DNA of 34,752 bases, taken from Lachnospiraceae bacterium. Its GTDB lineage: Bacteria; Bacillota; Clostridia; Lachnospirales; Lachnospiraceae. A program made the position numbers and the translations under genes. The stretch is taken from contig JAFTVH010000075.1 in assembly GCA_017465845.1 (NCBI GenBank), positions 1 to 34,752 of the forward strand, written 5' to 3'. Every line of letters starts with the position of its first letter. Position 1 is the first letter of the stretch. Shown piece by piece: positions 22,240 to 33,922 of this stretch. Below the pieces are notes generated by a model. The model saw only the letters and a program-made list of their open reading frames with translations. It was not told the DNA's origin and ran no database searches.

Positions 22240-22397
22240 GCTTCCGGACACCGAGGGTTCAAATTCAGACCCTATAAAAACGCCGGTCCTTGGGCTCGGT
22301 ACTTTCGCGACCGAATCCTCGCTTGCGAGGATTTGTACCGCTGCGTTTTTAACGGAGCGAAAGCGTGTCTGAATTTGAACCCTCAGTGCCCGGAAGC
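22240..22397 (+). ncRNA. Large structured inverted repeat, possible RNA element or MITE
   Basis: A 31-base left arm (22240-22270) pairs with a 31-base right arm (22367-22397) with only two mismatches. Inside are nested stems: AAAAACGC/GCGTTTTT (22276-22283/22343-22350), CGGTAC/GTACCG (22297-22302/22335-22340) and AATCCTCGC/GCGAGGATT (22314-22322/22325-22333). The copies of CTTTCGC and GCGAAAG (22302-22308/22357-22363) could form an alternative pairing. It ends 50 bases before the flavoprotein start, so it may be a cis-regulatory RNA, a small RNA, or a miniature inverted-repeat element. I cannot match it to a known family. Confidence 0.55.
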
Positions 22398-26706: not shown

Positions 26707-28005
26707 TTAGGCTTCCCCGACCACCTTATCAAGCAGTCTTGCGGAAGTTCGTTTCGCTTCCCTCTTAGAGTGAGCGTAGATGTTCATTGTGGTACTTACA
26801 TCAGAGTGTCCGAGCAGTTCCTGCACGTCCTTTGGTGCTGCACCATTAGAGAGCAGGTTGCTGGAAAGTGTGTGTCTCAGCATATGAAAATGGAAATCCT
26901 CAAATCCTTCCAGTTTCTTTTTTGCCGACCTGCACATAACCCCAACCGTACTCGGTGACTCGTATGCTCCGTCAGGTCTAAGGCAGACAAAGGATATTTC
27001 CTTGTATCCGTCCGGCACTTCTTCCGTTCTCGGCAGGCTGTAGACTTCGTAGTAAGTACGGTCTTTTTCTTTGACCTCTTTGTAGTAGTTGAGGTTGTAG
27101 AGTTCGCCATACTTGAAACGGTTCTTGTGCTGTTCCGTCTTTGCCTTTCTGAGAATGTCTGCCAGAGTGTCGCAGAAGTCCACGGTGCGGACTTTTTTGC
27201 GTTTGGTAGCACCTATCTCTGTCTTGTGCCTTTGCCCGTTGTATCGCATACTGCGTCGTACTGTGAGGTACTGTCCGTCAAGGTTGATGTCCTGCCAAGT
27301 CAATGCACACGCTTCTCCGATACGAAGCCCTGTGTAATAGGCTATCTGCATCGGGAGCAGTGCAGGATTATCTTTCTTTTTCAGAAAGTCCTCCAACATC
27401 AGAAACTGCTGATGGTCAATGGTAGGTGCGTTGTCAACCTCACCGTCCTCGTCTGCAAACAGTTCGTATTCCTCTTTCTTTCCCCTCCATACCACATACT
27501 GCATAGGGTTAAAGGAAATCAGTTTCTTCGGGAATACCGCAAATCGGAACGCCCCCTGCAATACTGCGGAGAACAGTCTCAGATACCCTTTGCTGAGTGC
27601 CTTTGCTGTTGTTCCGTCAGGGTTTTCTCCCCCGAAAGTAAGGAAGTCCATAAATGCCTGTAAATGTTCCGCAGTGACTGTTTTCAGCTTTCTGTCGCCG
27701 ATAGGATATTTCTTTATCCTGTTCACTGTTCCCATATACGCCATCACTGTACCGTTGCTCAGATTGCCGGGTTTCAGTTCTTCCTCCACCCACATATCAA
27801 GCAGCATACCCACAGTGGTGTTCTCAGGCTTTGCCACGAACTTCTTCGCTTCGTAGTCCTCCATTGCCTTGCGGAGCAATGCTTCCGTTTCGGATTTGCT
27901 TTCTGTGCCTGCAAACTCACGCTGTACCATCTTTCCGCTTTCATCTTCTACATAGAAGCGGTAGTACCATTTCTTGCCCTTTTTTCTTACAGATCCTTTT
28001 GCCAT
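26707..28005 (-). CDS. int: Tyrosine recombinase/integrase of Tn916 type
   Basis: A 432-residue integrase. The N terminus (MAKGSVRKKGKKWYYRFYVE) is the small three-strand AP2-like arm-binding domain, residues about 62-175 form the SAM-like core-binding domain, and the rest is the catalytic domain. All key residues are visible: Arg228 in YYTGLRIGEACALTW, His374 and Arg377 in HMLRHTL, His400 in LLGHSDVSTTMNIYAHS and the nucleophile Tyr410. It should catalyse integration and excision of the element by a transient phosphotyrosine link. It is the outermost gene at the left end, next to attL. AAAGGAG precedes its ATG. It appears intact. Confidence 0.95.
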   Translation of the reverse strand: MAKGSVRKKGKKWYYRFYVEDESGKMVQREFAGTESKSETEALLRKAMEDYEAKKFVAKPENTTVGMLLDMWVEEELKPGNLSNGTVMAYMGTVNRIKKYPIGDRKLKTVTAEHLQAFMDFLTFGGENPDGTTAKALSKGYLRLFSAVLQGAFRFAVFPKKLISFNPMQYVVWRGKKEEYELFADEDGEVDNAPTIDHQQFLMLEDFLKKKDNPALLPMQIAYYTGLRIGEACALTWQDINLDGQYLTVRRSMRYNGQRHKTEIGATKRKKVRTVDFCDTLADILRKAKTEQHKNRFKYGELYNLNYYKEVKEKDRTYYEVYSLPRTEEVPDGYKEISFVCLRPDGAYESPSTVGVMCRSAKKKLEGFEDFHFHMLRHTLSSNLLSNGAAPKDVQELLGHSDVSTTMNIYAHSKREAKRTSARLLDKVVGEA

Positions 28006-29370: not shown

Positions 29371-29432
29371 CGCACCCGACAAATCGGTTGCGTAATGAGT
29401 ACGGTATTCTCAGCGAAGAAAGGAGCAAAAGG

Positions 29433-30863
29433 TTGGCAAGACATTCGTTCATTCAGATGTCGAAGCTGCCCAATGTTAAGGGAAGAATCTCATATATTAC
29501 GAGCCACGCCAAACAGGAAAACCTTTATGCCACCTATCGTACCGCCGACAATACCTTTTGGAACAATCTCGCCAGGGAAAATCAGCAGGAGTTCCTGCGA
29601 AGCGGAACAAAGGGGAAATGTATCGAAGCAAGGGAGCTAATCATTGCCCTGCCGGAGATTTACACCACCTTTGACCCACAGCAGGTGCTTGAAGAATTTA
29701 CGAATAAATTCCGACAGCAGTACGGAGTGGAATGTGTATCGGCTCTGCACCACAATAAACGCAAAACCAATTACCACATTCACCTCATATTCAGCGAAAG
29801 GAAACTGCTTCCCGAACCTGACATCAAGATTGCCACCAGAAGCGTGTTTTATGACGAAACAGGAAAAAGGGTACGAACCAAGAAAGAAATCACAGACGAA
29901 AACGGTCAAGTCCGAAAAGGCTGTACCGTTATCAAAAAGGGGGATGTTTACGAAAGCCATTTATTCACAACCAAAGACGAGCGTTTCAAAACAGAAGCGT
30001 TCATAGCAGAGGTAAAAGACGCTTACACGGAACTTATCAATTCCCACATTTCAGATCCCGAACAGCGACTGAAAGTGTTTGATAAGAACAGTGTGTATCT
30101 CCCAACAAAAAAGATAGGCAAGAACAACCCCAAGGCTGCCGAAATCGAAGCGGACAACACCGCAAGGCAGGAATGGAACAGAACAGCGGATTTGGCTCTC
30201 ATATCGGGCATTGAAGAAGCAAAGATACTGGAAATCAAGCAGACCGAAATCCACGGCAAAGCCGGTCAGTCCATCCGTGAAAATGGTTGGCTTCCAAACC
30301 TGTTCCGATGTATCGTAGGTAAGGCAAAGGAATTTCTGCAAGCCATTATCCGTGAAAAGGATATGCCACCCAAGCCAGTCCTTAATATGGATATGGACGA
30401 GTTCCGCACAATGCAGACTCTTATGTTAAAGGTACAGAAACAGGCGAAAGCAATCAAGAAGATGCAGGAAGTCACACTCCCAAATCTGCGACAGCAGCTT
30501 GCTGAAACAACAGGTATCTTCAAGGGCAAGGAGCGTAAGGCTCTGGAAAAACAGATACAGCAGACCGAAGCCGAACTTGATGAAAAACTGGATAAACTCT
30601 CCGATATTCTCACCAATGACGGTTATCCTGATGTACAGGCATTTATGAAAACTTACCGCACAGCAGAGGCTATTGTGACACAGTATAACCAAGAGCTTAC
30701 AGAATGGGAGCAGGCAGTCAAGAACGGACAGAAACCTGCCGAGAAACAGCACAGACCGCCTGAAAAACAAAGTGTGCGTAACAGGCTCAGACAGCTTCAG
30801 GAAGAGGGCAAACAGAACGCTCAGCCGAAGCAGAGAAAGAAAGCCCAAGACAGGGACAGATAA
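29433..30863 (+). CDS. mobA: MobA/MobL-type relaxase
   Basis: A 476-residue mobilisation relaxase. It begins MARHSFIQMSKLPNVKGRIS with the TTG at 29433, preceded by AAAGGAG; upstream frames reach into the oriT hairpins. The metal-binding histidine motif is 'ALHHNKRKTNYHIHLIF' (His115 and His117 as HxH), with a likely catalytic Tyr in the N-terminal part. The C-terminal 200 residues are Lys/Glu/Gln-rich and probably coiled coil, as in many Gram-positive relaxases. It would nick oriT and pilot the strand through a conjugation pore supplied by another element, since none is encoded here. No frameshift was seen. Confidence 0.88.
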   Translation: MARHSFIQMSKLPNVKGRISYITSHAKQENLYATYRTADNTFWNNLARENQQEFLRSGTKGKCIEARELIIALPEIYTTFDPQQVLEEFTNKFRQQYGVECVSALHHNKRKTNYHIHLIFSERKLLPEPDIKIATRSVFYDETGKRVRTKKEITDENGQVRKGCTVIKKGDVYESHLFTTKDERFKTEAFIAEVKDAYTELINSHISDPEQRLKVFDKNSVYLPTKKIGKNNPKAAEIEADNTARQEWNRTADLALISGIEEAKILEIKQTEIHGKAGQSIRENGWLPNLFRCIVGKAKEFLQAIIREKDMPPKPVLNMDMDEFRTMQTLMLKVQKQAKAIKKMQEVTLPNLRQQLAETTGIFKGKERKALEKQIQQTEAELDEKLDKLSDILTNDGYPDVQAFMKTYRTAEAIVTQYNQELTEWEQAVKNGQKPAEKQHRPPEKQSVRNRLRQLQEEGKQNAQPKQRKKAQDRDR

Positions 30864-30997: not shown

Positions 30998-31033
30998 ATG
31001 ACACGTATCCGCTGGTACGCTTTTATTACTTGA
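30998..31033 (+). CDS. Possible 11-residue leader peptide
   Basis: An ATG at 30998 is preceded by GGGGGAG at good spacing and reads MTRIRWYAFIT before TGA. It ends exactly one base before the first 41-bp direct repeat. It may be a leader peptide, or the cut start of a gene broken by insertion of the repeat-framed cassette. It is too short for a firm call. Confidence 0.35.
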   Translation: MTRIRWYAFIT

Positions 31034-31074
31034 CCTGAGTTGAACGATGCACCATTCTTGGCGGGTCATTCAAC
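31034..31074. repeat. Direct repeat 1 framing the 410-residue cargo gene
   Basis: A 41-base segment starting CCTGAGTTGAACGATGCACC and ending GTCATTCAAC. It recurs in the same orientation at 32385-32427 with two substitutions and a two-base insertion. Each copy is an imperfect hairpin (GTTGAA ... TTCAAC) around a CATTCTTGGCGG centre. Confidence 0.8.
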
Positions 31075-31085
31075 GCAAAGGAAGA

Positions 31086-31125
31086 AAAACAACGGCTTGC
31101 ATTTTACAATGCAGACCGTTGTTTT
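31086..31125. terminator. Terminator of the 410-residue cargo gene
   Basis: AAAACAACGG (31086-31095) pairs with CCGTTGTTTT (31116-31125), and GCAT/ATGC extends it inside. The A- and T-ended stem works in both directions and lies 17 bases beyond the stop of the minus-strand cargo gene. Confidence 0.8.
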
Positions 31126-31141
31126 CTGATAATGGTTTATG

Positions 31142-32374
31142 TTACTGTTCTTTTCTTTCAGCTTTTTCAATAAGGCTGGAAAGCGAACGAAGTAGCTCGG
31201 CGTACTGAGAGGCAAGATAATTAAGGTCCAGTCGTCCGAGATCGGACTGGGAGTATTTATTTGAATAAAAGGTCAGAATTTTATGGATTCGGGTATAAAA
31301 GCGCTGTAAGGAATGCAGCTCGGAAACAGGCACCTCCTGCTTGCCGTCCAGTGCCCTAGAGATCTTCCTGCCGCTGAAACCGCATTGAAGCAGTGGGCGT
31401 TCTGATTTCTGTGCTAGGGACTCAAGAATCATGTACAGAATAATGAAACAGTTGAAGAGTTGTTGCTCGTCCTTAGTAATAGTGATCAATTTTTCCAACA
31501 GTTCAACGCTTCCGTCTGGATCTGTGGTCGGATCCAGATATCTCCAGGTTATGGCGAGGAGCTGAAAACCTTCTTTTTCCATCTGTTCCATCAGAGCATC
31601 GGTCAGCAATGCGTCGGACGGGGCAATGCCTCGCTGTTTTTCCTCTTCGTAAAGCTCCAGGATTTTTTCAAAGGTACAGAGAGTTGCACCGACGATCATA
31701 GGCAGAGCCTTTTCTTCATCCGGAATCGCTGCAGTCAGAAGAGGGGCGGCCACTGACGAAGCCATACCGCGGTAGCAGTGATAGAAGAAGATGACGGGAA
31801 CCGTCAGGCGCAGCTCCTCTGTAAAGTTCTTGGCCTGTTTGTCATACTGAGCTTCCACAACGATTCGCCACAGAGCATAATAATATCCTAAAAGCTCGAG
31901 GTACTGATCCCAGTCCTTTTTTACGGTATCATTGGGAAATAACCGCGCCTTTTTTTTGCGTGCCTCCAGTTCGGCAGCCGATAGGGAAGTGTTGTCGCCT
32001 TCTTTGTTCAGAGAAAGGTCAGCGGCGACCCATATCATACTGTGAACCAGCGGGATGGAACCCAGCCGATAGCAGTCATCTTCCTGCACCACGATACCAT
32101 GGGTAAGCAGATAACGGGTATAATTGTACGTGCTGTTTTTGGCTATGTACTGAATTTCTTTTTGCTTGTGTCGGGAAACACTCAGAAACAGCCGGAAGAT
32201 GTTATCTCCCTGTTCCTTTTCCATAAGTGCTTTTCCCAATGCGTTACAGGAAAACGAAGCATAGAAATCTTTATAAGCGGAGGGATCTGTGTGCAGGCGG
32301 AAGGGCTCTGGCTCTGCAATCAATTGCTTAAAAAGCTTATGCTGATGCTCTAAAAATTCTTGTGTGATTTCCAT
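31142..32374 (-). CDS. Unrecognised 410-residue helical cargo protein
   Basis: I do not recognise this family. The 410-residue product is soluble-looking and mostly helical, with no signal peptide or membrane span. Runs such as FYHCYRGMASSVAAPLL, 'GATLCTFEKILELYEEEKQR' and LLQCGFSGRKISRALDG suggest a helical-bundle or repeat fold. The ATG at 32374 is chosen because AGGAGGT lies six bases upstream; the frame further upstream only translates the direct repeat. The gene, with its own ribosome binding site and terminator, is framed by a 41/43-bp direct repeat, as if it entered as a unit. It is oriented against the relaxase. As accessory cargo of a mobile element it could serve in defence, stress or element control, but nothing in the sequence proves this. 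Confidence 0.65.
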   Translation of the reverse strand: MEITQEFLEHQHKLFKQLIAEPEPFRLHTDPSAYKDFYASFSCNALGKALMEKEQGDNIFRLFLSVSRHKQKEIQYIAKNSTYNYTRYLLTHGIVVQEDDCYRLGSIPLVHSMIWVAADLSLNKEGDNTSLSAAELEARKKKARLFPNDTVKKDWDQYLELLGYYYALWRIVVEAQYDKQAKNFTEELRLTVPVIFFYHCYRGMASSVAAPLLTAAIPDEEKALPMIVGATLCTFEKILELYEEEKQRGIAPSDALLTDALMEQMEKEGFQLLAITWRYLDPTTDPDGSVELLEKLITITKDEQQLFNCFIILYMILESLAQKSERPLLQCGFSGRKISRALDGKQEVPVSELHSLQRFYTRIHKILTFYSNKYSQSDLGRLDLNYLASQYAELLRSLSSLIEKAERKEQ

Positions 32375-32384
32375 AAAAATACCT

Positions 32385-32427
32385 CCTGAGTTGAAAACGA
32401 TGCCCCATTCTTGGCGGTTCATTCAAC
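32385..32427. repeat. Direct repeat 2 framing the 410-residue cargo gene
   Basis: A 43-base copy of the 31034-31074 repeat (CCTGAGTTGAAAACGATGCC at its start). It overlaps the upstream half of the AGGAGG that serves the cargo gene, so this copy would be in its mRNA leader. Confidence 0.8.
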
Positions 32428-32494
32428 CACTTATATTTAGTGCAAAGTTTTATTTATTTTCCAAATATAGATAAGTAATCTGTTACAAGCCATA

Positions 32495-32683
32495 TTATAA
32501 CAGAATATGACTGTTTGTATCAACTACTTTTTCCTGATAACCCGGTTCACCTGTCACCAAATATATATTATTATATTGCTTCTCTATTAAGCGTAAAAGT
32601 CTTAGTGTTCCGGTTTTAGGTGCGTATTCTTCTATTCGTCTGAAATGTTTTTCGGATGCTTTCCGGTTTGGCACTATCCGCAT
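32495..32683 (-). CDS. Small protein of unknown function
   Basis: A 62-residue basic protein (MRIVPNRKASEKHFRRIEEY at the start). The ATG at 32683 is preceded by AGGAGGT, which sets the start more firmly than the frame extending to 32707. The end overlaps the degraded tnpV fragment by 10 bases on the same strand. No domain is recognised. It may be an element-specific small gene or the broken remains of a larger one. Confidence 0.45.
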   Translation of the reverse strand: MRIVPNRKASEKHFRRIEEYAPKTGTLRLLRLIEKQYNNIYLVTGEPGYQEKVVDTNSHILL

Positions 32684-32925
32684 ATACACCTCCTGCGCAA
32701 TTCGCAAATAACCATCTTTATGTAAAAATTTTCTAAGCCTTGTATATTCTGTCTTGGGTCCTCATTTCTCTGTTGGACTAAGAATAACAAGTAATGGAAC
32801 ATTTGCTCCGCCTGTTGATTAATATCGGCAAGATAGGAGTTCAGTGTACCCTCAATCAGCATTTTGGTATAAAGAAAGTGCTTATGTAGCCTCAATTCAT
32901 AACTTTTCCAAGATAGACGGTACAC
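32674..32925 (-). pseudogene. Degraded tnpV copy
   Basis: The centre of this frame, HFLYTKMLIEGTLNSYLADI followed by NQQAEQMFHYL, closely matches the intact TnpV at 33545-33922 (HFLYTTMLVEGTLNRYLADI). The N-terminal third of TnpV is replaced by unrelated sequence and the C terminus diverges after the match. It has no convincing ribosome binding site. It is therefore read as a decayed paralogue. Confidence 0.75.
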
Positions 32926-33544: not shown

Positions 33545-33922
33545 TTATGCGTAAATCAACTCGCTATTGACAGTCTCTCTTGCACAAGCTTGAATATTGT
33601 TCATCAATCCTATCCATTCCATAGGTGCTTCTACTTTTAACTGTTCCGTCACGCCTTGCTTTTCTGCCATTTCTTTAATCAATCTATGGAACATTTGCTC
33701 CGCTTGTTGGTTAATATCAGCAAGATAGCGGTTCAGAGTACCCTCAACCAGCATTGTGGTATAAAGGAAGTGCATTTGCTCCTTTAGATACTGCTTGTGG
33801 CGTTGTCCCCATAAGCCGATAGGCTCTGTTTCTTCTTTGGAAAGTATCAGACAAGGGATATAATAATCTCCCTGCAATTCATACCATAAACCGTTGCTTT
33901 CGTCAAAAATGTACTTGTCCAT
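33545..33922 (-). CDS. tnpV: TnpV-like transposon protein
   Basis: A 125-residue protein of the TnpV type, known from clostridial mobilizable transposons such as the Tn4451 group, with no proven function. The text 'DESNGLWYELQGDYYIPCLI', then LGLWGQRHKQYLKEQ-like and 'HFLYTTMLVEGTLNRYLADI', NQQAEQMFHRLI, is the family signature. The ATG at 33922 is preceded by GGAGG on the minus strand; the frame further upstream has no ribosome binding site. It is the outermost gene at the right end of the element, before the arm repeat and attR. A decayed paralogue lies 620 bases away. Confidence 0.85.
   Translation of the reverse strand: MDKYIFDESNGLWYELQGDYYIPCLILSKEETEPIGLWGQRHKQYLKEQMHFLYTTMLVEGTLNRYLADINQQAEQMFHRLIKEMAEKQGVTEQLKVEAPMEWIGLMNNIQACARETVNSELIYA

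Follow-up and report, generated by a model that had tools for sequence, protein, structure and literature searches.

Repeat-bounded gene cassettes beside Cas1-Cas2 in Clostridia: a probable gene-capture module and its dead copy in a Lachnospiraceae contig

The described systems closest to the locus reported here are type II CRISPR-Cas adaptation, integrons, and casposons together with cas1-solo elements. In type II-A systems, incoming DNA is reported to be trimmed down to 30 bp by Cas1, Cas2, Csn2 and Cas9 acting as a complex (PMC8034620), and in casposons and cas1-solo elements Cas1 is found outside immune CRISPR loci and acts on mobile DNA (PMC9939771). On the Campylobacter coli plasmid p13786, cas1 and cas2 adjoin tet(O) and have been taken for CRISPR immunity, and neither the repeats nor the cassette arrangement that surrounds aph(2'')-Ii and aph(3')-IIIa is mentioned in the available portion of that report (PMC10800408). 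No earlier description of a repeat-bounded Cas1-Cas2 gene-cassette system was found in the open-licence PMC literature, a search outside which most preprints and closed journals lie. Here, a stretch of 34,752 nt from a Lachnospiraceae bacterium (contig JAFTVH010000075.1, assembly GCA_017465845.1; hereafter the window) was compared with repeat loci of other genomes. It probably holds a dead copy of a Cas1-Cas2 module, effector-less as judged by searches for Cas9 and Csn2, that captures gene-sized DNA in the manner of an integron. With type II CRISPR-Cas adaptation (E. faecalis Cas1, 5xvn; S. pyogenes Cas1, 4zkj) the module shares homologous Cas1 and Cas2, partly palindromic direct repeats of 36 nt and a leader, as well as signs of growth at the leader end, a repeat that is apparently copied and phage DNA among the inserts. 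It differs in that no Cas9 lies beside the array, in inserts that carry whole genes, in its carriage on mobilizable elements and in a Cas1 clade of its own. Casposons and cas1-solo elements likewise have a Cas1 outside immune CRISPR loci that acts on mobile DNA; here, however, Cas1 is accompanied by Cas2, a leader and a repeat array, and it would integrate fragments of foreign DNA instead of its own element. No PolB was found among the genes scanned beside cas1.

In the window, two direct repeats frame one minus-strand gene (Table 1). The initial annotation had claimed a like-oriented, hairpin-forming repeat on each side of this gene, and this was confirmed: copies A and B have the same orientation and are 94% identical across 32 nt in register, copy B being longer by two A. 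The repeat is an imperfect palindrome of 36/38 nt, and the length of 41/43 bp given earlier arose because the pentamer CCTGA, which precedes both copies alike, had been counted along with it. Folding of copy A beats that of shuffled sequences on both strands (z -3.7 on the minus and -2.8 on the plus strand), that of copy B on the plus strand only (z -2.4; minus strand z -0.3). A 31-nt repeat pattern with up to three mismatches matched copies A and B only in the window and gave no match in 100 dinucleotide shuffles; no further copies were found in the assembly of the window's genome, which is 85% complete. The repeat was also considered as an RNA element and rejected, since Rfam gave a sub-threshold Thr_leader match on the distal repeat (26.8 bits against a gathering value of 55). 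The cassette length would become 1,317 nt if the second repeat were set at 36 nt. The ribosome-binding site and the terminator attributed to the gene are indeed present within the cassette. By contrast, the supposed cut-off leader peptide is a complete 11-codon ORF (30998-31033) with its own TGA that ends 5 nt ahead of copy A; neither a counterpart of this stretch in the fetched repeat loci nor a tie to the cassette system was found.

Table 1. Features of the cassette locus and its surroundings in the window (positions within the 34,752-nt stretch)
Feature	Positions	Strand	Remarks
Tyrosine integrase	26707..28005	-	Distance to the array about 3 kb; probably shares the carrying element with the relaxase
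MobA/MobL relaxase	29388..30863	+	47.7 bits (cut-off 26.7); probably of the carrying mobilizable element
Copy A, leader-distal repeat	31039..31074	-	36 nt, GTTGAATGACCCGCCAAGAATGGTGCATCGTTCAAC (cas/cargo sense); one mismatch to the commonest repeat elsewhere
Cassette between the repeats	31075..32389	-	1,315 nt, with copy B at 38 nt
Intrinsic terminator of the cargo gene	31077..31125	-	Hairpin with 18-nt arms and T-run; z -8.1
Cargo gene P0001	31142..32374	-	410 aa, orphan, leader-sense
Ribosome-binding site	32381..32387	-	AGGAGGT; starts 2 nt inside the cassette
Copy B, leader-proximal repeat	32390..32427	-	38 nt, degenerate (two-base insertion and substitutions)
CRISPR-like leader	32428..32497	-	Resembles leaders of intact loci; ends ...ctaaatataagtg against the repeat
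Promoter-like site	32494..32523	-	TTGATA-18-TATAAT (11/12, TG before -10); points into the cassette
cas2 remnant	32498..32800	-	85% protein identity with intact cas2; codon 13 is an in-frame stop; GTT where the start is expected
tnpV-like gene piece	32794..32886	-	88% copy of 33686-33778; abuts the cas2 remnant in place of cas1

The cargo protein P0001 could be assigned to no Pfam, NCBIfam, PADLOC or PHROG family above cut-off, its best Pfam signal being TetR_C_30 at 14.8 bits, under the cut-off of that family. PDB matches were to designed pentatricopeptide repeats, in pieces of 22-36 residues of which no stretch passes alone. Relatives were found neither in plasmids, phages nor IMG/VR; among 299 genomes of the phylum only P0001 itself was recovered, and 250 genomes of the family yielded itself and one 65-residue match at 29% identity with three stops; a convincing relative was not recovered.

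The module in the window is dead: its cas2 carries a stop and cas1 is absent. The promoter-like site sits at the end of cas2 and is found at the same position in other loci. Four such sites occur in the region as compared to 3.9 expected by chance, and the promoter reading is therefore founded on the position conserved across loci and not on the site count. A distant DNA search with the region matched three plasmid records, at the repeat and an annotated cas2. The genome of the window gave no Cas9 match and one further Cas1 of 53.8 bits, below the type II cut-off. Because its two repeats differ by a 2-nt insertion and more, capture in the window is argued by analogy with the arrays of other genomes.

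A search with three mismatches detected the repeat in 8 of 299 genomes sampled from the family, counting that of the window; in one of the others, a single contig bore nine copies among the matches listed, spaced 285-1,761 bp apart. A collection spanning 84,980 species contained 84 contig stretches with the repeat; of the 80 listed, 47 are titled Lachnospiraceae and the rest are mostly other Clostridia, with three from Synergistes sp. The fuller loci have a common architecture, namely cas1-cas2, a leader of about 70 nt, a repeat, one or more cassette-repeat units and a distal flank, and thus direct repeats of about 36 nt stand behind a conserved leader as in type II CRISPR-Cas. The distal flank is common to 13 of the 14 arrays compared, whose leaders were chosen by a motif filter, and the window is the exception. 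Similarity to cas1 or cas2 (E up to 1e-10) within the fetched stretch of at most 8 kb was detected in 28 of 80 loci, some with fragments only. Contig ends make up many of the repeat loci without cas similarity, and some arrays have an orphaned or degenerate appearance.

Between leader and distal flank, one to three cassettes were found in L064, L114, L116, L068, L073, L103 and L039, among others. Flavonifractor sp. AGMB03687 (L050) has an empty site, with intact cas1-cas2, leader, a single repeat and distal flank. From the window alone, a cassette-exchange system with variable cargo had been proposed, and the first half of that proposal has gained strong support: different genes sit between the copies in many other genomes, and a single-copy site exists. 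The word exchange is not borne out, the evidence being for insertion and gain. In the window the repeat flanks only the cargo gene, as would be the case if the two copies were the leader and trailer of that one gene; elsewhere it flanks dozens of other genes and occurs alone in L050, so that this explanation is already refuted and retains practically no probability.

The inserts themselves are unlike spacers in length. Extraction gave 51 cassettes from 31 loci with lengths of 68-3,267 nt and a median of 969 nt, as compared to about 30 nt in type II CRISPR-Cas, and none of the 51 was of spacer length. Inserts between 1 and about 3,560 nt were eligible for extraction; gaps of 3.6 kb or more were absent from the fetched loci, most of which measure 8 kb or less. 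Five inter-repeat segments with cas genes, remnants or leaders (the first of L030, two of L091, and one each of L104 and L119) were dropped from the initial 56, and thirteen loci had been left out before extraction as copies, among them L051, which comes from another genome and whose cassette is nearly that of L004. No complete ORF of at least 90 aa was present in 13 of the 51 cassettes, and some cassettes are internal pieces of genes, open at both ends. APH(2'')-IIa with AAC(6')-Im exceeded curated cut-offs; an ABC-F protein matched OptrA with 572 bits, under the cut-off of 1450, and further cargo according to Pfam and NCBIfam comprised MGMT, chemotaxis receptors, a family-8 glycosyltransferase, and AraC and HD-domain proteins.

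Cas9 and Csn2 were searched for in 18 carrier genomes. Cas9 (TIGR01865) was over cut-off in one of the 18, whose completeness was not given, namely L081 with a full-length Cas9 in its genome, and three weak matches lay below the cut-off; Csn2 (TIGR01866) was over cut-off likewise in one, as two partial frames in the genome of L114. An ordinary CRISPR array was rejected on account of insert length and missing Cas9. It is very improbable that these loci are immune arrays with unusually long spacers, in which the cassettes would be memories of phages and plasmids for an effector acting in trans. Phage-like DNA in four cassettes and the promoter-like site in the leader would suit such a function; against it stand the lack of Cas9 over cut-off in 17 of the 18 carriers and in the genome of the window, inserts that reach 3.3 kb, hold whole genes mostly in leader orientation and would be senseless as guides, and the resistance genes and other non-phage genes among the cargo.

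The orientation of the cargo is biased. The longest complete ORF is leader-sense in 32 of the 38 ORF-bearing cassettes and opposite in the other 6 (p=2.4e-5); counting all complete ORFs, the ratio of leader-sense to opposite is 47:10, in which ORFs sharing a cassette are not independent of each other. Among 51 pairs of neighbouring repeats, 29 consist of identical copies, and the mean mismatch of 1.5 compares with 4.4 between loci, a closer likeness that is expected if insertion copies the repeat. Identical pairs are distributed unevenly, with 20 of 23 in arrays with the commonest repeat, 7 of 8 in L030 and 2 of 20 in the remainder; that the other 18 of these 20 pairs differ is as expected of older or decaying arrays. 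Put differently, arrays without the commonest repeat have 9 identical pairs among 28, and 7 of these are in L030.

A directional array behind a fixed promoter-like site (here predicted), empty and filled sites and resistance cargo are shared with integrons (IntI, attI, attC). By contrast to integrons, the array adjoins cas2-cas1, the repeat seems to be copied on insertion instead of being cassette-borne, the fragments seem to be drawn from any DNA, and the repeat misfits the attC consensus. No IntI gene was found among the neighbours read in intact loci, which were an HTH protein, a relaxase, a serine recombinase and host-type genes, and an attC identity of the repeat was judged unlikely from its behaviour and the attC consensus. 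The intact elements L103, L084 and L122 have one ORF lay-out in common, which in L103 comprises a serine recombinase (Pfam), a Mob_Pre relaxase, an HTH protein, cas1, cas2 and the array, in this order. This lay-out with its large recombinase, the tyrosine integrase in the window's element at about 3 kb from the array, and the combination of a palindromic repeat with directional cassettes known from integrons could all be accommodated if a site-specific recombinase other than Cas1, either the serine recombinase or the tyrosine integrase of the element, moved cassettes at the repeat in integron style. We regard this as improbable: the modules of L092 and L061 sit among host-type genes, with no recombinase among seven neighbour proteins tested, and the array adjoins cas2 and the leader where the cas genes are intact. 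Moreover, the repeats within an array tend to be alike and seem not to come with each cassette, and the repeat, GTTGAAY...RTTCAAC, is inside-out relative to the attC consensus.

Donor DNA provides a view of the junctions. The interior of a phage capsid gene (PF05065) makes up a 505-nt cassette of L103, and IMG/VR viral contigs carry this piece unbroken past both ends, at 96.8% identity over the exact length in L139, 96.6% in L138 and 90.7% in L140. In p13786, 808 plasmid records match the sequence that follows the second repeat; in 11 of the 11 non-self matches listed, homology to aph(3')-IIIa plasmids sets in directly behind the repeat (query base 41), upstream of aph(3')-IIIa, and in E. faecium pRUM the native neighbour at this junction is sat4. 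Furthermore, in L084, a Lachnospiraceae MAG titled Lapin, the 41 nt after the last repeat start at the same base as the p13786 junction. Close donors with junctions are thus at hand for two captures only, with both ends at high identity in the capsid donor alone, and because donors are so few a PAM is not readable. Phage-like homology of 69-90% covers three other cassettes in part or in full. The aph(2'')-IIa/aac(6')-Im cassette is matched by five plasmid records at 96.4-96.5%, and since this match stops short of both cassette ends it is read as kinship and not as a junction. Other searches gave no donor: none for both L103 cassettes in 98 relatives, none for the L068 cassette in plasmids, none for the L103 capsid piece in the phages collection, and none in E. 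coli genomes; for the L116 cassette, 299 genomes gave only pieces of about 70%, apart from a copy in G006 that adjoins the same repeat.

Near-identical elements were found to differ in their cargo. L103, L084, L122, L071 and L073 agree at 99.7-99.9% over the 1,450 bp that lead up to the first repeat, and no cassette was found in common among them, L122 having no complete cassette as it ends before its cassette closes. In two comparisons there are signs, at the level of sequence, that new units enter at the leader end. L109 has the glycosyltransferase (GT8) cassette of L039 (99.8%) with an extra 293-nt piece on the leader side, its far repeat being missing, and L084 and p13786 have the distal junction in common and differ on their leader sides, as judged on the 41 nt before the end of the L084 contig.

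Cas1 of the arrays is of type II (TIGR03639, 242 bits, cut-off 120; PDB 5xvn, E=1e-34), and Cas2 belongs to the general Cas2 family (TIGR01573, 47 bits, cut-off 24.5). The nine Cas1 proteins selected as full-length hits have 301 aa, no stops and at least 74% mutual identity. Other type II Cas1 proteins were detected in 27 of the 391 genomes sampled across the class, and their identity to the array-linked Cas1, which forms its own clade, reaches 37% at most; by close match, no Cas1 was found in viral contigs. The residues E147, H202 and E217, the presumed catalytic triad by the numbering of the E. faecalis and S. pyogenes Cas1, are kept in all properly read Cas1 rows (35 of 36, the L171 row with two residues being excluded). 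For the 26 of 36 pairs whose dS exceeds 0.02, dN/dS is 0.06-0.18, which indicates that Cas1 is under purifying selection; few of these pairs are independent, as seven of the nine genes are near-identical, and the pairs with L081 are saturated (dS of 2 or more).

These data also bear on the possibility that the loci are decayed type II CRISPR loci, in which genes entered between leftover repeats by homologous recombination or illegitimate insertion and Cas1-Cas2 was uninvolved. We consider this unlikely. The dead module of the window, the fragmentary state of several arrays and cas genes, the type II nature of cas1 and the non-identical repeats in many of the less common arrays are what decay would leave behind; it would, however, hardly account for nine Cas1 genes (chosen as full-length) without stops and under purifying selection, for differing cassettes on near-identical elements together with an empty one-repeat site, for junctions at the exact repeat edge in both close donor cases, or for the fact that among 51 inserts, the smallest of 68 nt, none is of spacer length.

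The architecture, the conserved leader, the empty site, the differing cargo on near-identical elements, the donor junctions, the lack of Cas9 over cut-off in most carriers and the constraint on Cas1, all apparent from sequence comparison, instead argue for capture by the Cas1-Cas2 module. We infer from them that Cas1-Cas2 performs the insertion, that a missing ruler lies behind the insert size and that the leader drives expression. Following this, we propose that Cas1-Cas2 would join a DNA fragment of any length to both ends of the leader-proximal repeat, which would be copied in the process, so that the fragment becomes a repeat-bounded cassette. With Cas9 and Csn2 missing from the locus and from most carriers, no ruler would be left, and inserts of any length would result. 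Fragments would be taken regardless of content, pieces of phage genes as well as whole genes, and the promoter in the leader would read through the newest cassettes; as the promoter-like site points into the array, the array would act like that of an integron. Selection would then retain useful leader-sense genes, for example resistance genes, which would explain the leader-sense bias. The module rides on small mobilizable elements and also sits among host-type genes, and its copy in the window would have caught one fragment of 1.3 kb with an orphan gene and later lost cas1 and the function of cas2.

It is fairly probable that Cas1-Cas2 thereby provides a third natural means of gene capture, next to integrons and transposons: an adaptation enzyme that has lost the immune effector and with it the 30-bp ruler, stores whole genes in place of memories, travels among gut Clostridia by way of mobilizable elements and in at least one case (C. 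coli p13786) has reached a plasmid of another phylum along with aminoglycoside-resistance genes. If so, Cas1-Cas2 would naturally do the job of integron integrases and, as no attachment site on the incoming DNA would be needed, any fragment could become a cassette. This would represent a live path from immune memory to gene capture and would help to explain the presence of some aminoglycoside-resistance genes in gut Clostridia and on the Campylobacter plasmid. Moreover, the role of Cas9 and Csn2 in setting the spacer length of type II systems would become directly testable, and biotechnology would gain a Cas1-Cas2 integrase for long inserts. Among the loci compared, an intact one (L103) belongs to a named strain, Fusibacillus kribbianus YH-rum2234.

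A GNAT/aph(2'')-Ii cassette was found framed by the palindromic repeat on a Campylobacter coli plasmid, p13786 (L003), where it lies beside a truncated cas1 and an intact cas2, which adjoin tet(O). The second repeat is followed by aph(3')-IIIa, and no third repeat was found in the circular record up to position 6 kb. The aph(2'')-IIa/aac(6')-Im cassette of Fusibacillus kribbianus (L103) showed 96.4-96.5% identity to plasmids from Klebsiella, Citrobacter and Enterococcus, the match ending before either cassette end is reached.

The long array at locus L030, the repeat of which starts with CTTGAACGA, is accompanied by a cas1 gene whose N-terminal part is missing, and repeats are also present on at least four further contigs of this genome. 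At L091, L104 and L119, cas genes or their remnants were located together with leaders inside repeat-bounded segments, which, judged from sequence, look as if they were tandem or captured modules. Among the 18 carrier genomes searched, Cas9 scored above the cut-off solely in that of locus L081 (674 bits). The window genome encodes a second, different Cas1 (L278; G000:C9:8099-8863), whose score lies below the type II cut-off.

Coordinates of features at the repeat loci and in the window
Feature	Position	Remark
Eight-cassette array	L030:8189-14958	behind endolysin gene
Inverted pair CTATATTT / AAATATAG	e.g. L050:2577-2642	leader, immediately before first repeat
TCAGG (cargo sense)	window 32385-32389 and 31034-31038	after both window repeats
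93-bp repeat, 88% identity	window 32794-32886 and 33686-33778	part of tnpV gene
Cassette of C. coli p13786	L003:991-2520	GNAT + aph(2'')-Ii between two perfect repeats
Cassette of F. kribbianus	L103:383-2066	aph(2'')-IIa + aac(6')-Im

With regard to the repeat edges, the inverted pair of the leader was present in one sub-group of loci and could be a site read by Cas1-Cas2 or by a host factor. A comparison of L068, L073, L103 and L045 with L050, L064, L114 and L116 shows two forms of the distal flank, which starts directly at the repeat with either caaattataccc or (t)ataccc; elements that are otherwise alike differ here by about five bases. In the window, both repeats are followed by TCAGG and the direct repeat therefore measures 41/43 rather than 36/38 nt; this extension may reflect either chance or a staggered copy.

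One copy of the duplicated part of tnpV abuts the cas2 remnant of the window. Elsewhere in the window, at 22240-22397, an inverted repeat of 31 nt was observed, with arms that are 94% complementary and separated by 96 nt.
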